Source of the DNA: Actinoallomurus sp. | GTDB taxonomy: Bacteria; Actinomycetota; Actinomycetes; Streptosporangiales; Streptosporangiaceae | Direction: 5' to 3' | Assembly: GCA_025964685.1 (NCBI GenBank) | Contig: JAOPYG010000126.1 | Coordinates: 1 to 35,952 of the forward strand | Length of the DNA stretch: 35,952 nucleotides | In this document: in pieces, positions 13,951-19,036 of the stretch | Layout of the letters: each line of letters begins with the position of its first letter | Position numbering within the stretch: position 1 is the stretch's first letter | Translations under genes and position numbers: made by a program | Notes under the pieces: generated by a model | What the model was told of the DNA's origin: nothing | The model's input: only the letters and a program-made list of their open reading frames with translations | The model's database searches: none

Positions 13951-14021
13951 CCGGGACCGTGGCGGGCACGGACCGCGCGGGTGAAGGACTGGGCGTGCGT
14001 TCAGCGAGATTTGGCACAGGG

Positions 14022-14049
14022 CCGGGGCCGCCACGCGTGGCGGCCCCGG
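14022..14049. terminator. Terminator-like 28-bp palindrome downstream of the lanthipeptide precursor
   Basis: A perfect 28-bp palindrome with arms beginning CCGGGGCCGCCACG. It lies 20 nt beyond the precursor stop and before the histidine phosphatase promoter. It ends the lanthipeptide unit. The T-rich flank lies on the plus-strand side. Confidence 0.75.
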
Positions 14050-14068
14050 TTTCTTCTGTCAGGTCAGG

Positions 14069-14188
14069 TCAGCAGACGGTGGTCCAGGTCGGTACTCGGT
14101 CCACGGCGGCGGGGATGCACGGCGTGCGGTCCTCGGCCACGCTCTCCTCCGGCAGCCGCTGCAGTTCGTCCAGGTCGTGGGTGATCAT
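14069..14188 (-). CDS. Putative class IV lanthipeptide precursor
   Basis: A 39-aa peptide encoded 28 nt downstream of the lanthipeptide synthetase on the same strand, with a good AAGGAAG site before the ATG at 14188. The N-terminal part, MITHDLDELQRLPEES, is acidic and amphipathic and has the LQ and LPE features of class III/IV leader peptides. The C-terminal part carries the modifiable residues Thr22, Cys24, Thr34, Thr36, Thr37 and Cys39, ending TWTTVC. Two Cys allow at most two (methyl)lanthionine rings. The leader/core boundary is unknown, perhaps near Asp20-Arg21. A strong hairpin follows the stop. Identification is inferred from position, size and composition, since I know no close sequence relative. 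Confidence 0.75.
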   Translation of the reverse strand: MITHDLDELQRLPEESVAEDRTPCIPAAVDRVPTWTTVC

Positions 14189-14216
14189 CGGGCTTCCTTT
14201 CTGGGGTGGGACTCGA

Positions 14217-16949
14217 TCAGTGCGGCACCGCGCCGCACGTTCGGGGGGTGGCCGGGGCCACGAGGGGTTCGGCGGGGTCGAGCGGCGGCATGAACAACGC
14301 CACGGACGCGCCGTGCGGGCGAAGAAGGGCGGCGACCACGCCCGCGACGCCGACACCCCAGCCGGGGAAGACGTCGATGCCGGAGTGGTCCGGGGTGAGC
14401 AGCAGGCCGTCGCGGACGACGGCCCGTGCGGCCAGGGCCGAGACGGCCTCATCAGCCCAGGCGCGGTAGCGGTCGTCGCCGGTGGCCTCGGTCATGTCCA
14501 TGAGGTGATCCATGGAGCCCGCCGTGCCGTGGCAGTGGGCCGGCCGGGACTGCCAGATGTCGTGGCGTACGGCGGCCGCCGCTCCCTCGGCCGCCGTACG
14601 GAAGTCCGTCTCACCGGTCGCCCGCCACAGCCGCAGCAGGAACGCCCCGACGCCGGCCGCGCCGCTGCACCAGCCGGTCAGCGGTACGTGGTCATCCGGG
14701 CCGGCGCTCCACCGGGCGGCGCCGTCGTGACCCCACAGCGTGGCGGCGCACAGCGTGCGGCCCGCGTGGCGTGCGGCGGCCAGGCAGTCGTCGCGACCGG
14801 TCACCATCGCGGTGTCCAGCAGAAAGGCGGCGATGCCCGCGGTTCCGTGCGCGAAGCCGTGGTGGGTGGCGCCGACCGGCAGGTGCGGGGGCTGGGGCGG
14901 CACCGGCCAGCGGACCCCGTCCGGGCCGTGGGCGGCCGCCGCCAGAAGCGCGTCGGCGCACTCTTCCGCCGTACGCCGGAAGGAGTCCCGCCCGGTGTGG
15001 CGCCAGAACCGCAGCGCGGTCAGGCCGGTGCCGGCGATCCCGTGGGTCACGTCGGGCACGGGCCCGGACGCCGGCAGGAGCTCCGCGGCGTCGGTGACCC
15101 GGCTCACCATGGCGGCGTCGCCGAGCGCGATCGCCGCCTCCAGCAGCGCCCAGTACGTCCCCGACCGGCCGAAGTGCAGCCCGGGAAGGGTCACGGGCTC
15201 CCGCGCGGCGCTGCGCTCGAGCCAGCGCGCGGCGCGTGCGGTCGCGGCGAGCAGCGCGGGATCCGGCCGGTGCCGGCACGCCACGGCCAGCACGGCGACG
15301 ATCCCGGCCGCGCCGTAGTAGACGTTGCACGGGTCGGTGGTGGCGCCGAAGGCGTCGGCCGGCCACCAGCGCGCGGTTCCCGGCTCGGCGGTGCCGTCCG
15401 GGTCAGCGTCCCGGCCGCCGGAGCCGATCAGGTAGGTCAGGCCGTCGTCGAGGAGGCGGTCCGCGTCGTCCCCGCGCGGCGACGTCGAACGTGGGCCGGG
15501 CTCCGATGCGCGCAGGGCCTCGCGTACGCGTTCCAGGGGCGGGCGTCGTGCGGGATCCCTGCCGGTCAGCTCCAGGATCAGGGGGCCGAGTCCGGCGGCG
15601 AGCGGGAGGTCGCGGGCGGCGCGGTCCAGCCAGCCGGCGATCCGGTCGTGCGCGCCGCGTTCGTCGTCGTCCGCCAGAACCGGTTCGGCCCCGGTCACCA
15701 GGGCGAACAGGATCGCGCCCACGCTGTGCAGGTCGACGGCCGGACACGCGTGGCGCTCGGTCCACTGCTCCGGGGCCGCGTACCCGGGCGAGCCGCCGGG
15801 TACGGCGTCCTGCCCGGCGAGGCCCGCGAGCTCCAGGTCGATCAGCCGCAGCTCGCCGCCGGGCAGCACCATGACGTTGGCGGGCGTCAGGTCACGGATG
15901 ACGACGCCCTCACGTTGCACGGCGGCCACCAGGTCCACCAGCGACGACGCGGTACGACGTATCGCCTCGGGGTCCGCCGCACCGCCCCGGTGCAGGCGCT
16001 GCAGGTGGACGCCGAGGGACACGCCGTCGAGGGCCTGGACGACCAGGAAGGTGTGTTCGGGCAGGTCGATCAGGGCGTGCACGCGGGGTACGAGCCCGGT
16101 CGCGGCGAGCCGGCCGAGCATGCGGGCCTCATTGCGCAGCAGGTCGCGTACGTCAGCCCCGTCGGACCGCACCTCGACGTGCCGACGCGCCTGTTTGACC
16201 ACGACCTGCTCGCCGGTGTGCTGATCCGTGGCGCGGAAGACGCCGCCCTTGTTCGCGTGCCGGATGGCGCCGCGGAGCAGGAACCGGTCATCGATCAGCA
16301 CGCCGCCCGGAGCGGGCGCCGGGGCCGTGGGTGGCTCGGCGAAGGGGTTCGGTGGCGCCCACGGGGGCGGGGAGAACCACGCGTCACGCCGGTCGGTCAC
16401 CCATGTGCCGTCGGGACCGGCAACGACCGGCTCATAGACGCCGTTGGCCGCCAGCCGCAGCCGGCGTACGAAGCCGCCGTAGCGGAAGTGCACCAGGCTG
16501 CCGGGCCGGCAGGGGCGGTCGGACAGGATGCGCGGTCCGTCCAGTCCGCCGATCGCCTCGTCCAGGGCCCGCACCAGGTCCGGCAGGACGGAGTCGTCCG
16601 GAGGATAGACGGTGAGGAACTTGCCCGCCGAGCCCCGATCGGCGTGGCGCCCGGTCAGGTGGGCGACCTCGGCGGGCGAGGCGGCGAACTTGAACGAGCA
16701 GCCCGCCTCCGCGAGCAGCGGCGTGGCACGTCGCAGGACGAGCGCGGCCGACGACGGCACCGCCGAGAGGTGAACTTTCCATCCCTGGTCCGGCAGCACG
16801 GCGTCATGGGGAGCGACGTGGGTCCACACCCCGGCCCGCTGGATCCGCCAGCCGACGCGGGGTAGCCCGGCGCGCACGATCTCGCCGAACCGGGTGGGGT
16901 CGTCCGACGCCGGTGGTGCTGGCGGTGACGCGGGACGCGCTGCCGGCAC
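14217..16949 (-). CDS. Class IV lanthipeptide synthetase (LanL)
   Basis: A three-domain enzyme (910 aa) that phosphorylates Ser/Thr in the precursor, eliminates phosphate and forms (methyl)lanthionine rings. Residues about 1-210 are the lyase domain (AGKFLTVYPP, RPCRPGSLVHFRYGGF). About 230-500 is a Ser/Thr-kinase-like domain with VVVKQ, catalytic loop VIRDLTPANVMV and LIDLELA. About 520-910 is a LanC-like cyclase. All three zinc ligands are present: Cys761 in GWCSG, and Cys806 and His807 in HCHGTAG. This marks class IV, because class III enzymes lack them. The start at GTG 16949 follows TAGGAGGAG; a TTG at 16985 is less likely. The precursor gene lies downstream. No transporter or protease is adjacent. 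Confidence 0.9.
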   Translation of the reverse strand: MPAARPASPPAPPASDDPTRFGEIVRAGLPRVGWRIQRAGVWTHVAPHDAVLPDQGWKVHLSAVPSSAALVLRRATPLLAEAGCSFKFAASPAEVAHLTGRHADRGSAGKFLTVYPPDDSVLPDLVRALDEAIGGLDGPRILSDRPCRPGSLVHFRYGGFVRRLRLAANGVYEPVVAGPDGTWVTDRRDAWFSPPPWAPPNPFAEPPTAPAPAPGGVLIDDRFLLRGAIRHANKGGVFRATDQHTGEQVVVKQARRHVEVRSDGADVRDLLRNEARMLGRLAATGLVPRVHALIDLPEHTFLVVQALDGVSLGVHLQRLHRGGAADPEAIRRTASSLVDLVAAVQREGVVIRDLTPANVMVLPGGELRLIDLELAGLAGQDAVPGGSPGYAAPEQWTERHACPAVDLHSVGAILFALVTGAEPVLADDDERGAHDRIAGWLDRAARDLPLAAGLGPLILELTGRDPARRPPLERVREALRASEPGPRSTSPRGDDADRLLDDGLTYLIGSGGRDADPDGTAEPGTARWWPADAFGATTDPCNVYYGAAGIVAVLAVACRHRPDPALLAATARAARWLERSAAREPVTLPGLHFGRSGTYWALLEAAIALGDAAMVSRVTDAAELLPASGPVPDVTHGIAGTGLTALRFWRHTGRDSFRRTAEECADALLAAAAHGPDGVRWPVPPQPPHLPVGATHHGFAHGTAGIAAFLLDTAMVTGRDDCLAAARHAGRTLCAATLWGHDGAARWSAGPDDHVPLTGWCSGAAGVGAFLLRLWRATGETDFRTAAEGAAAAVRHDIWQSRPAHCHGTAGSMDHLMDMTEATGDDRYRAWADEAVSALAARAVVRDGLLLTPDHSGIDVFPGWGVGVAGVVAALLRPHGASVALFMPPLDPAEPLVAPATPRTCGAVPH

Positions 16950-16999
16950 GGCTCCTCCTAACCCACTGACCGCGGACGGGGTCAAGTCGATCTTTACGG

Positions 17000-17028
17000 A
17001 TGGTAGCCGTGGGAGTCATTTCTGGAAA
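17000..17028 (-). promoter_or_regulatory. Candidate promoter of the lanthipeptide locus
   Basis: On the minus strand TTTCCA (17023-17028) and TACCAT (17000-17005) are separated by 17 bp. The leader to the GTG at 16949 would be about 45 nt and contains the AGGAGG site. The region is less GC-rich than its surroundings. Confidence 0.35.
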
Positions 17029-17136
17029 TATGTGGTTTTGCACCATTTGTGGGGTTCGACTGGGACTCTCGTACGAACGGTCCAGGCCAGGCGGGAGTGC
17101 CGTCCATCCGAAGCCCCACAGCCGGCGGCGGACAGT

Positions 17137-18060
17137 TCACCCCGATGTAACAGCCGGATCGTTCAGAACCGGCGCGGAAGCGCGGAGGGCCGCGACCGTG
17201 GCCTGGATGGCCGGGCGGCGAGCGGCCTCGGCACGCCAGATGGCGTAGACGTGACGCGTGAGCGCCGGCCGTACCGACACGATCCGGACACCGTCCGGGA
17301 TGTCACAGCGCCCCAGCCGAGGCACGATCGCCGCTCCCAGACCGACGGCTACCAGCGCGAGCTGGGTGGCGTACTCGTCCGCCGTGTGGGCGACCCTGGG
17401 TTCGAGGCCGGCCGAACGCAGTGTGTGCACGAGCCAGTCGCGGCAGATCGCGCCCGGCGACTGGGCGATCCAGGAGTCGCCGTGCAGCTCGCCGAGGTCG
17501 ACGACGGACCGCTCGGCGAGCGGATGCCCGGCCGGCAGCGCCACGTCCGCGACGTCGTCGACGAGCGAGGACTTGACCAGGCCGTCCGGGATGGCCAGCG
17601 GCACGTTGAACCAGTCCTGCACGATCCCCAGGTCGATCTCGCCGCGGACGGCCAGCGGCACCGCGGCGTGGGGTTCCTGTTCGCGCAGGCACACCCGAAG
17701 GCGCGGATGCTTAAGTCCCAGAGCGCGCAGCGCCATGGGCACGAGCCCGCGCGCCGCCGTGGGGAACGCCGCGACCGCCAGCTCGCCGACGACCTCGCCG
17801 CGCTGCGCCTCCAGGTCGGACTCGGCCTCCTCGACCATGGCGAGGATCCGATCCGCGTGCGCCGCGAGCAGCGCGGCCGCGTCGGTGAGGCGCACCCCGC
17901 GGCCGTTGCGTTCGAGCAGCTTCTGGCCGGTCTCGCGCTCCAGCTTGGCGACCTGCTGAGAGACGGCGGAGGTGGTGACGTGGAGCACGTCGGCGGCGGC
18001 GCTCACCGAGCCGTACGTGGCCACGGCACTGAGGGCACGAAGCCGGTCTAGGTCCAGCAT
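17137..18060 (-). CDS. LysR-family transcriptional regulator
   Basis: A LysR-type regulator (307 aa). The N-terminal winged helix-turn-helix is VATYGSVSAAADVLHVTTSAVSQQVAKLERE (about residues 13-43), and the rest is a two-lobed periplasmic-binding-like effector domain with DLGIVQDW and GLGAAIVPRLG. It is divergent from an exporter/aldolase/oxidoreductase operon with 73 nt between, the usual layout of a LysR regulator and its target. It is on the same strand as the lanthipeptide synthetase, 187 nt upstream, so read-through into that locus is possible but not required. The inducer is unknown; the target suggests an amino acid or derivative. Confidence 0.92.
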   Translation of the reverse strand: MLDLDRLRALSAVATYGSVSAAADVLHVTTSAVSQQVAKLERETGQKLLERNGRGVRLTDAAALLAAHADRILAMVEEAESDLEAQRGEVVGELAVAAFPTAARGLVPMALRALGLKHPRLRVCLREQEPHAAVPLAVRGEIDLGIVQDWFNVPLAIPDGLVKSSLVDDVADVALPAGHPLAERSVVDLGELHGDSWIAQSPGAICRDWLVHTLRSAGLEPRVAHTADEYATQLALVAVGLGAAIVPRLGRCDIPDGVRIVSVRPALTRHVYAIWRAEAARRPAIQATVAALRASAPVLNDPAVTSG

Positions 18061-18133: not shown

Positions 18134-19036
18134 ATGAAACCTCGCCACGTCGCCATCGCGGTGATGATCGCCGCCATCTGGGGCGTCAACTTCGTCGCGA
18201 TCGACGTCGGGCTCGGCTCGCTGCCACCCCTGCTCTTCGCCGGCCTGCGGTTCGTCGCCGCGGCGTTCCCGGCCGTTCTGTTCCTGCGCCGGCCGCCGAT
18301 CGCGTTCCGCCGGCTCCTCCTCATCGGGCTGCCGCTCGGCGTCGGCCAGTTCGGGCTGCTGTTCATCAGCATGCACATCGGCATGCCGGCCGGCCTGTCC
18401 TCGCTGGTCCTGCAGACGCAGGCACTGTTCACCGCGCTGCTCGCCGCCGTGATGCTGCGCGAGCGTCCGCGCCGGGCGCAGGCGGCGGGGATGGCCGTGG
18501 CGTTCGCCGGAATCGCCCTGATCGGGCTGTCGCTCGGCCAGGGCAGCCCACTGCTCGCGTTCACGCTGTGCATCGGCGCCGCGGGCATGTGGGGGCTGGC
18601 CAACATCGGGATGCGCAGGGCACAGCCGCCGGACGCGTTCGCGTTCATGGTGTGGGTCAGCCTCGTGCCGCCGCTCCCGCTGCTGACCCTGTCGATGATC
18701 TTCGAGGGTCCCCGCGCCGACGCGCACGCGCTCGCGCACATCACCACCGGCGGCATCGGCGCCCTCTTCTACATCGCCTACATCTCGACCCTGGTCGGCT
18801 TCGGCGCCTGGGGCTGGTTGCTGCGCCGGTACGACGCGGGCCAGGTCGCGATGTACTCCCTGCTCGTGCCGCCGTTCGGCATGTCGTCCGCGGCGCTGTT
18901 CCTCGGCGAGCGGATCACCCTCACAGACGCCGTCGCGGCCCTCCTGATCGTCGGCGGCGTGGCCCTCGGCAGCCTCCGGCGGCGCCGCAGCCCGATCTCG
19001 CCCGCACCCCTCGCGCCACTGGTCAGGACCCCGTGA
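18134..19036 (+). CDS. EamA-family (DMT) exporter, YdeD-like
   Basis: A ten-helix drug/metabolite transporter (300 aa) made of two EamA repeats. The first repeat starts AAIWGVNFVAIDVGLG, the second near CIGAAGMWGLANIG. Its pattern is close to the E. coli O-acetylserine/cysteine exporter EamA (YdeD), for example HIGMPAGLSSLVLQTQALFT and ISTLVGFGAWGWLLRRY. It is therefore likely to export a small amino acid or derivative. The ATG is at 18134, with no ribosome-binding site, consistent with a leaderless message. The stop overlaps the next gene as GTGA. It is the first gene of a LysR-controlled operon. Confidence 0.9.
   Translation: MKPRHVAIAVMIAAIWGVNFVAIDVGLGSLPPLLFAGLRFVAAAFPAVLFLRRPPIAFRRLLLIGLPLGVGQFGLLFISMHIGMPAGLSSLVLQTQALFTALLAAVMLRERPRRAQAAGMAVAFAGIALIGLSLGQGSPLLAFTLCIGAAGMWGLANIGMRRAQPPDAFAFMVWVSLVPPLPLLTLSMIFEGPRADAHALAHITTGGIGALFYIAYISTLVGFGAWGWLLRRYDAGQVAMYSLLVPPFGMSSAALFLGERITLTDAVAALLIVGGVALGSLRRRRSPISPAPLAPLVRTP

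Follow-up and report, generated by a model that had tools for sequence, protein, structure and literature searches.

A two-gene lanL-lanA locus in Actinoallomurus that probably encodes an undescribed class IV lanthipeptide

The archetype of the class IV lanthipeptides is venezuelin (VenL/VenA), whose synthetase carries lyase, kinase and LanC-like domains. The sections of the published account that set out its cluster give the gene order venL, venA, venT, venH, with the ABC transporter pair venT and venH downstream of venL and venA, name no protease gene, and place four cysteines (C32, C34, C45 and C50) in VenA (PMC2843593). The locus described here lies in a window of 35,952 nt, a stretch of Actinoallomurus sp. 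DNA (GCA_025964685.1, contig JAOPYG010000126.1, positions 1 to 35,952). It resembles the venezuelin cluster in the three domains of its enzyme, in the position of the precursor gene after the enzyme gene and in the lack of a protease gene, whereas it differs in that no ABC transporter pair was found beside it and in that its precursor holds two cysteines rather than four. Judging from sequence, we consider it very probable that the window contains a two-gene class IV lanthipeptide locus, lanL-lanA, which is probably expressed as one minus-strand transcript. Among PDB entries, 8car matches the enzyme, LanL, over nearly its full length (residues 29-880, E 4.5e-81). The title of that record reads only 'Serine/threonine protein kinase', and we take 8car and 8cav to be CuvL of curvocidin, a remote relative of the window's LanL that we compared as an enzyme alone.

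The enzyme gene lanL (14217..16949, minus strand) reads without internal stops from a GTG start at 16949, directly preceded by AGGAGGAG, and encodes 910 residues. The class IV model NF038150 (NCBIfam) matches enzyme residues 34-879 over model positions 1-844 of 851, with 914.8 bits against a cut-off of 650. Because of this profile match, the minus strand was taken as coding in preference to a long plus-strand ORF (13959-16865) that overlaps both lanL and lanA. Pfam places RamC_N (PF25816), Pkinase (PF00069) and LANC_like (PF05147) on a single chain, that is, lyase, kinase and cyclase together, in agreement with the original prediction of a complete class IV enzyme. The zinc ligands that it had named, Cys761, Cys806 and His807, are all retained at those positions in the window's enzyme; across 45 aligned LanL sequences, C761 and C806 are invariant (45/45 each) and H807 is kept in 37, with Cys in the other 8. 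The same alignment of the window and the fetched loci preserves K252, D353 and D371 of the kinase domain and K58, H60, K87, K110, Y115 and R156 of the lyase domain in all 45, and we presume that these residues have the corresponding kinase and lyase roles. Identity as a class III (LanKC) enzyme was rejected, as the zinc ligands are present and the LanKC model (NCBIfam) scores the same protein at 460.5 bits, below its cut-off of 575; class III enzymes are described, in the relevant part of PMC7268733, as having a cyclase without zinc ligands.

Twenty-eight nucleotides separate the lanL stop from the ATG of lanA (14069..14188, minus strand), which encodes the 39-residue peptide MITHDLDELQRLPEESVAEDRTPCIPAAVDRVPTWTTVC. 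Its ribosome-binding site, AAAGGAAG (14193..14200, minus strand), ends 4 nt 5' of the ATG, and the AAAGGAA within it is retained in both relatives that carry the locus. The gap and the dedicated ribosome-binding site bear out the earlier description, as does the translation, which has a cysteine at position 24 and a C-terminal end TWTTVC that closes on Cys39. No NCBIfam or Pfam model matches the peptide, and a comparison with plasmids gave no match. Its leader nevertheless carries a motif seen in precursors beside related LanL enzymes, and within 6 kb of the enzyme the 39-residue peptide is the sole match to the strict form of this motif in all three carriers. Two ORFs upstream of lanL were rejected as precursors, namely 16804-17046 and a 48-residue frame with one Cys at 16994-17140 (minus strand), the latter having no leader motif.

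Four of the eight genomes of the genus contain a LanL-like match (E up to 1e-60), and three, the window's own counted, contain an ortholog of at least 70% identity. In the two other carriers, G001 and G006, the 39-residue peptide follows the orthologous enzyme at the same place as in the window, and each copy is identical to the window's at 36 of 39 residues. Persistence of the frame in relatives with the same synthetase had been proposed as a test of the peptide, and the frame is kept in these two same-genus species. Any two of the three peptides differ at 3 of 39 positions, with variation overall at residues 4, 5, 16 and 29; residue 16 changes from Ser to Thr in G006 and is still dehydratable, while Cys24, Cys39, Thr22, Thr34, Thr36 and Thr37 are unchanged throughout. 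The enzymes of the relatives are 72-75% identical to that of the window (72.1-76.2% over all three pairs). Of the 39-residue stretches of the enzyme, 1 of 853 and 0 of 854 show no more than 3 differences in the two pairs that include the window, against 54 of 856 between G001 and G006. Nei-Gojobori dN/dS is 0.16-0.21 for lanA, a short gene with 4 nonsynonymous changes per pair, and 0.29-0.34 for lanL. Two orthologous enzymes are thus accompanied by a peptide with 36 of 39 residues identical to the window's, which is more than chance would give, and on these grounds we regard the peptide as a real precursor that the enzyme most likely cross-links into rings. The enzyme stop overlaps the peptide ATG by 4 nt in both G001 and G006, which favours coupled expression. 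The peptide is present in 3 of 341 genomes of the family, all from a single genus, in 3 of 345 genomes of the order (a set that adds few to those of the family), and in 1 of 396 sampled genomes of the phylum, which is the window's own.

In all three carriers, lanL-lanA lies between a LysR gene, on the upstream side, and a histidine-phosphatase gene. These two genes follow one another directly in G002, about 126 nt apart, and thus mark an empty site; for G003, G004 and G007, the 8-10 kb retrieved contained no LysR match near the phosphatase gene, and G005 retains only a scrap. The three carriers are joined in the LanL tree with support of 100/100 on a long stem, and their sister fork is without resolution, the program warning of long branches. 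Upstream of lanL, the carriers share an alignable block, TACCATCCGTAAAGATCGA-CTTGACC (TACCMTCCGTAAAGNYCGA then CTTGACC; 16980..17005, minus strand), which is a candidate promoter or operator of lanL. Each carrier genome has a single exact copy of the 19-nt pattern of this block, and the four non-carriers searched (G002, G003, G004 and G007) have none; with exactly one site per carrier, no regulon for it was seen. When up to 2 mismatches are permitted, one site appears in G002, and a reversed-pattern control also yields one, in G001.

Between lanA and the phosphatase gene lies a perfect 28-bp palindrome (14022..14049, minus strand) that would form an RNA hairpin; the segment 14005-14071 folds as RNA at -30.5 kcal/mol (z -3.88, with 0 of 200 shuffles as good). 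The original prediction took this palindrome for a terminator. The palindrome itself stands, but the transcribed strand after it reads CCCTGTGCC, with no T-tract, and a terminator scan called none at 14022-14049, so a canonical intrinsic terminator is unsupported there. The 80 nt 3' of lanA fold at -34.7 kcal/mol in the window, -33.7 in G001 and -39.8 in G006, and both relatives have a long hairpin at the same place with a sequence different from the window's. We place little weight on these hairpins, because in G002 the spacer, with no lanA in it, still reaches -30.2 kcal/mol.

The arrangement of LanL loci was surveyed in 45 cases: the window's own locus, three from two members of the genus, 40 chosen from the matches listed in the LanL search, and L040; L016 was left out as a copy of L104. 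ORFs of 30-80 residues within 6 kb of LanL were scanned for the leader pattern [DNS]-[LIVF]-x-x-L-x-x-L-[PA] together with a Cys. The pattern was fixed after some precursors had been seen, and the test is therefore the contrast in place and not the raw count: it occurs in 40 of 757 ORFs that lie downstream on the same strand, against 1 of the 2880 ORFs in the three remaining classes. Strict-motif peptides lie downstream in 29 loci, and L097 and L113, through a looser pattern, bring the same-strand downstream cases to 31 of 45, in a non-random sample that consists mostly of the best matches of the LanL search and leaves 35 other loci (28-36% identical) outside. The nearest downstream precursor is at most 430 nt from the stop in 16 loci and 1.6-2.4 kb away in 15. 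No convincing precursor was found by motif in ten loci (L110, L121, L122, L124, L127, L129, L130, L131, L135 and L136), and L098 has a candidate upstream on the opposite strand. In a divergent LanL branch (L132, L133 and L134, at 34-36% identity; L083, L084 and L085 are the same loci with shorter flanks), the candidate precursors lie upstream; their leaders are of a different type (EPRDAG...), and the core holds several Cys. The survey corrects the earlier claim that the gene order here is reversed relative to most lan loci: given the 31 of 45 LanL loci and the order in the ven cluster (PMC2843593), the order in the window is ordinary for class IV. Outside the carriers, the LanL enzymes of L117/L118 are the closest to the window's, at 46% identity. 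These two loci, together with L120, L123, L126 and L128, share the gene order, the leader motif and a short precursor with the window's locus but have other cores.

Neighbouring protease and exporter genes were sought by tblastn with the S9 protease and the ABC protein of L109 as queries (E up to 1e-8, within 6 kb). This test, which may overlook other exporter types, found an S9 protease in 21 of 45 LanL loci, an ABC match in 32, and one or both in 36. All three carriers are among the nine loci with neither (the window, L053, L054, L105, L113, L117, L118, L120 and L136); of the similar loci named above, an ABC gene was detected at this distance for L123, L126 and L128 and, by the same test, for none of L117, L118 and L120. 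Neither an ABC gene nor an S9 protease was found within 6 kb of the window's lanL by similarity, and a motif scan, of a kind that overlooked ABC genes elsewhere, found no ABC ATPase in the 36-kb window; both searches agree with the expectation that no ABC transporter or leader protease is adjacent. The description of the locus as minimal is apt in that the two genes lack such neighbours, but this does not make it special, as nine of 45 loci, the three carriers included, show no S9 or ABC gene within 6 kb by the similarity test. Across the window's genome, an S9 search gave one match (E up to 1e-15, 30% identity) and a search for M1 proteases (AplP family) gave seven, which say little because 8 of 14 control genomes have M1 matches too. 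An EamA-type exporter gene (window 18134-19036) adjoins the LysR gene; its nearest model is an O-acetylserine/cysteine exporter, with a score under the cut-off, and it is probably unrelated to the pair, since G002, which has no lanL at the site, has the EamA gene too.

The modification, ring pattern, proteolysis, export and function of the lanA product we infer from these features. Following co-transcription of lanL and lanA, LanL would bind the lanA leader at about MITHDLDELQRLPE, its kinase domain would phosphorylate Ser/Thr in the C-terminal part of the peptide, and its N-terminal lyase domain would eliminate the phosphate to leave Dha/Dhb. The zinc cyclase would then add Cys24 and Cys39 to form up to two (methyl)lanthionine rings, with Ser16 or Thr22, and Thr34, Thr36 or Thr37, as candidate ring partners, while leader removal and product release would fall to proteins encoded elsewhere. 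The locus is ordinary in its enzyme, leader and gene order, and somewhat unusual in the strict conservation of its core, in its restriction to one genus and in having no export or protease genes nearby.

Two other readings were weighed. It seems to us very improbable that the true substrate of LanL is another small peptide, upstream or elsewhere, and that the 39-residue ORF is due to chance or unrelated; a 48-residue frame with one Cys does lie upstream of lanL, and the divergent LanL branch has its candidate precursors on that side, but this frame is without the leader motif, the region 5' of lanL aligns poorly among the carriers except for the short block, and the strict motif singles out the 39-residue peptide in all three. 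The locus might instead be the remnant of a larger cluster whose protease and exporter genes are gone and from which no product is released any longer, as could be suggested by the S9 and/or ABC genes of 36 of 45 LanL loci, which the carriers lack, and by the same-genus G002, which is without the insert at this site. However, neither gene is disrupted in any of the three species, dN/dS stays well below 1, the peptide has changed less than the enzyme, and the block upstream of lanL is conserved, and we consider such decay unlikely.

A further proposal is compatible with a functional lanL-lanA pair and concerns function only, namely that the modified peptide has an intracellular or signalling role and is not an exported antibiotic. 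The lack of an exporter adjacent to the pair, the strictly conserved core and the LysR regulator gene upstream in all three carriers would fit this proposal. Exporters may, however, be encoded elsewhere, and the LysR gene also occurs in G002 with no lanL there, so that this link is weak; we entertain the proposal tentatively, as the less expected outcome. In a more specific and similarly speculative form, the locus would encode a genus-restricted class IV lanthipeptide with a near-frozen core beside a diverging enzyme. The cassette would consist of just the two genes, flanked by a LysR gene and a phosphatase gene, with a conserved upstream element of its own and without an exporter or protease dedicated to it; the product may have a conserved target in the producer itself and serve there as a developmental or internal signal and not as an antibiotic.

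Under the preferred reading of a two-gene class IV locus, lanL-lanA is predicted to yield a product that is probably undescribed but of a known kind. A literature text search with three short strings of the lanA peptide gave no match, in line with the original expectation of an undescribed product, and no text was found in the literature that pairs 'class IV lanthipeptide' with 'Streptosporangiaceae'. PMC7268733 refers to a mined set of 401 class IV precursors, and the lanA peptide could be among them. Class IV thus gains a probably undescribed core, in a two-gene pair that would be easy to test by co-expression. The S9 protease found beside 21 of 45 LanL genes suggests that many class IV loci of the family carry one, and these neighbours bear on how class IV leaders are removed. 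The protease-like gene used as the S9 query (L109:4103-5932, minus strand) belongs to the prolyl-oligopeptidase family, as assigned by a Pfam run on the L109 protein only. The S9 gene lies between lanL and the precursors in 15 of the 21 loci and after the precursor in three (L101, L103 and L106), and no precursor was found in the remaining three. The genome of G001 has a second LanL, L055, which is placed elsewhere in the LanL tree; its cluster contains two near-identical precursors as well as an S9 protease, and it also has an ABC match.
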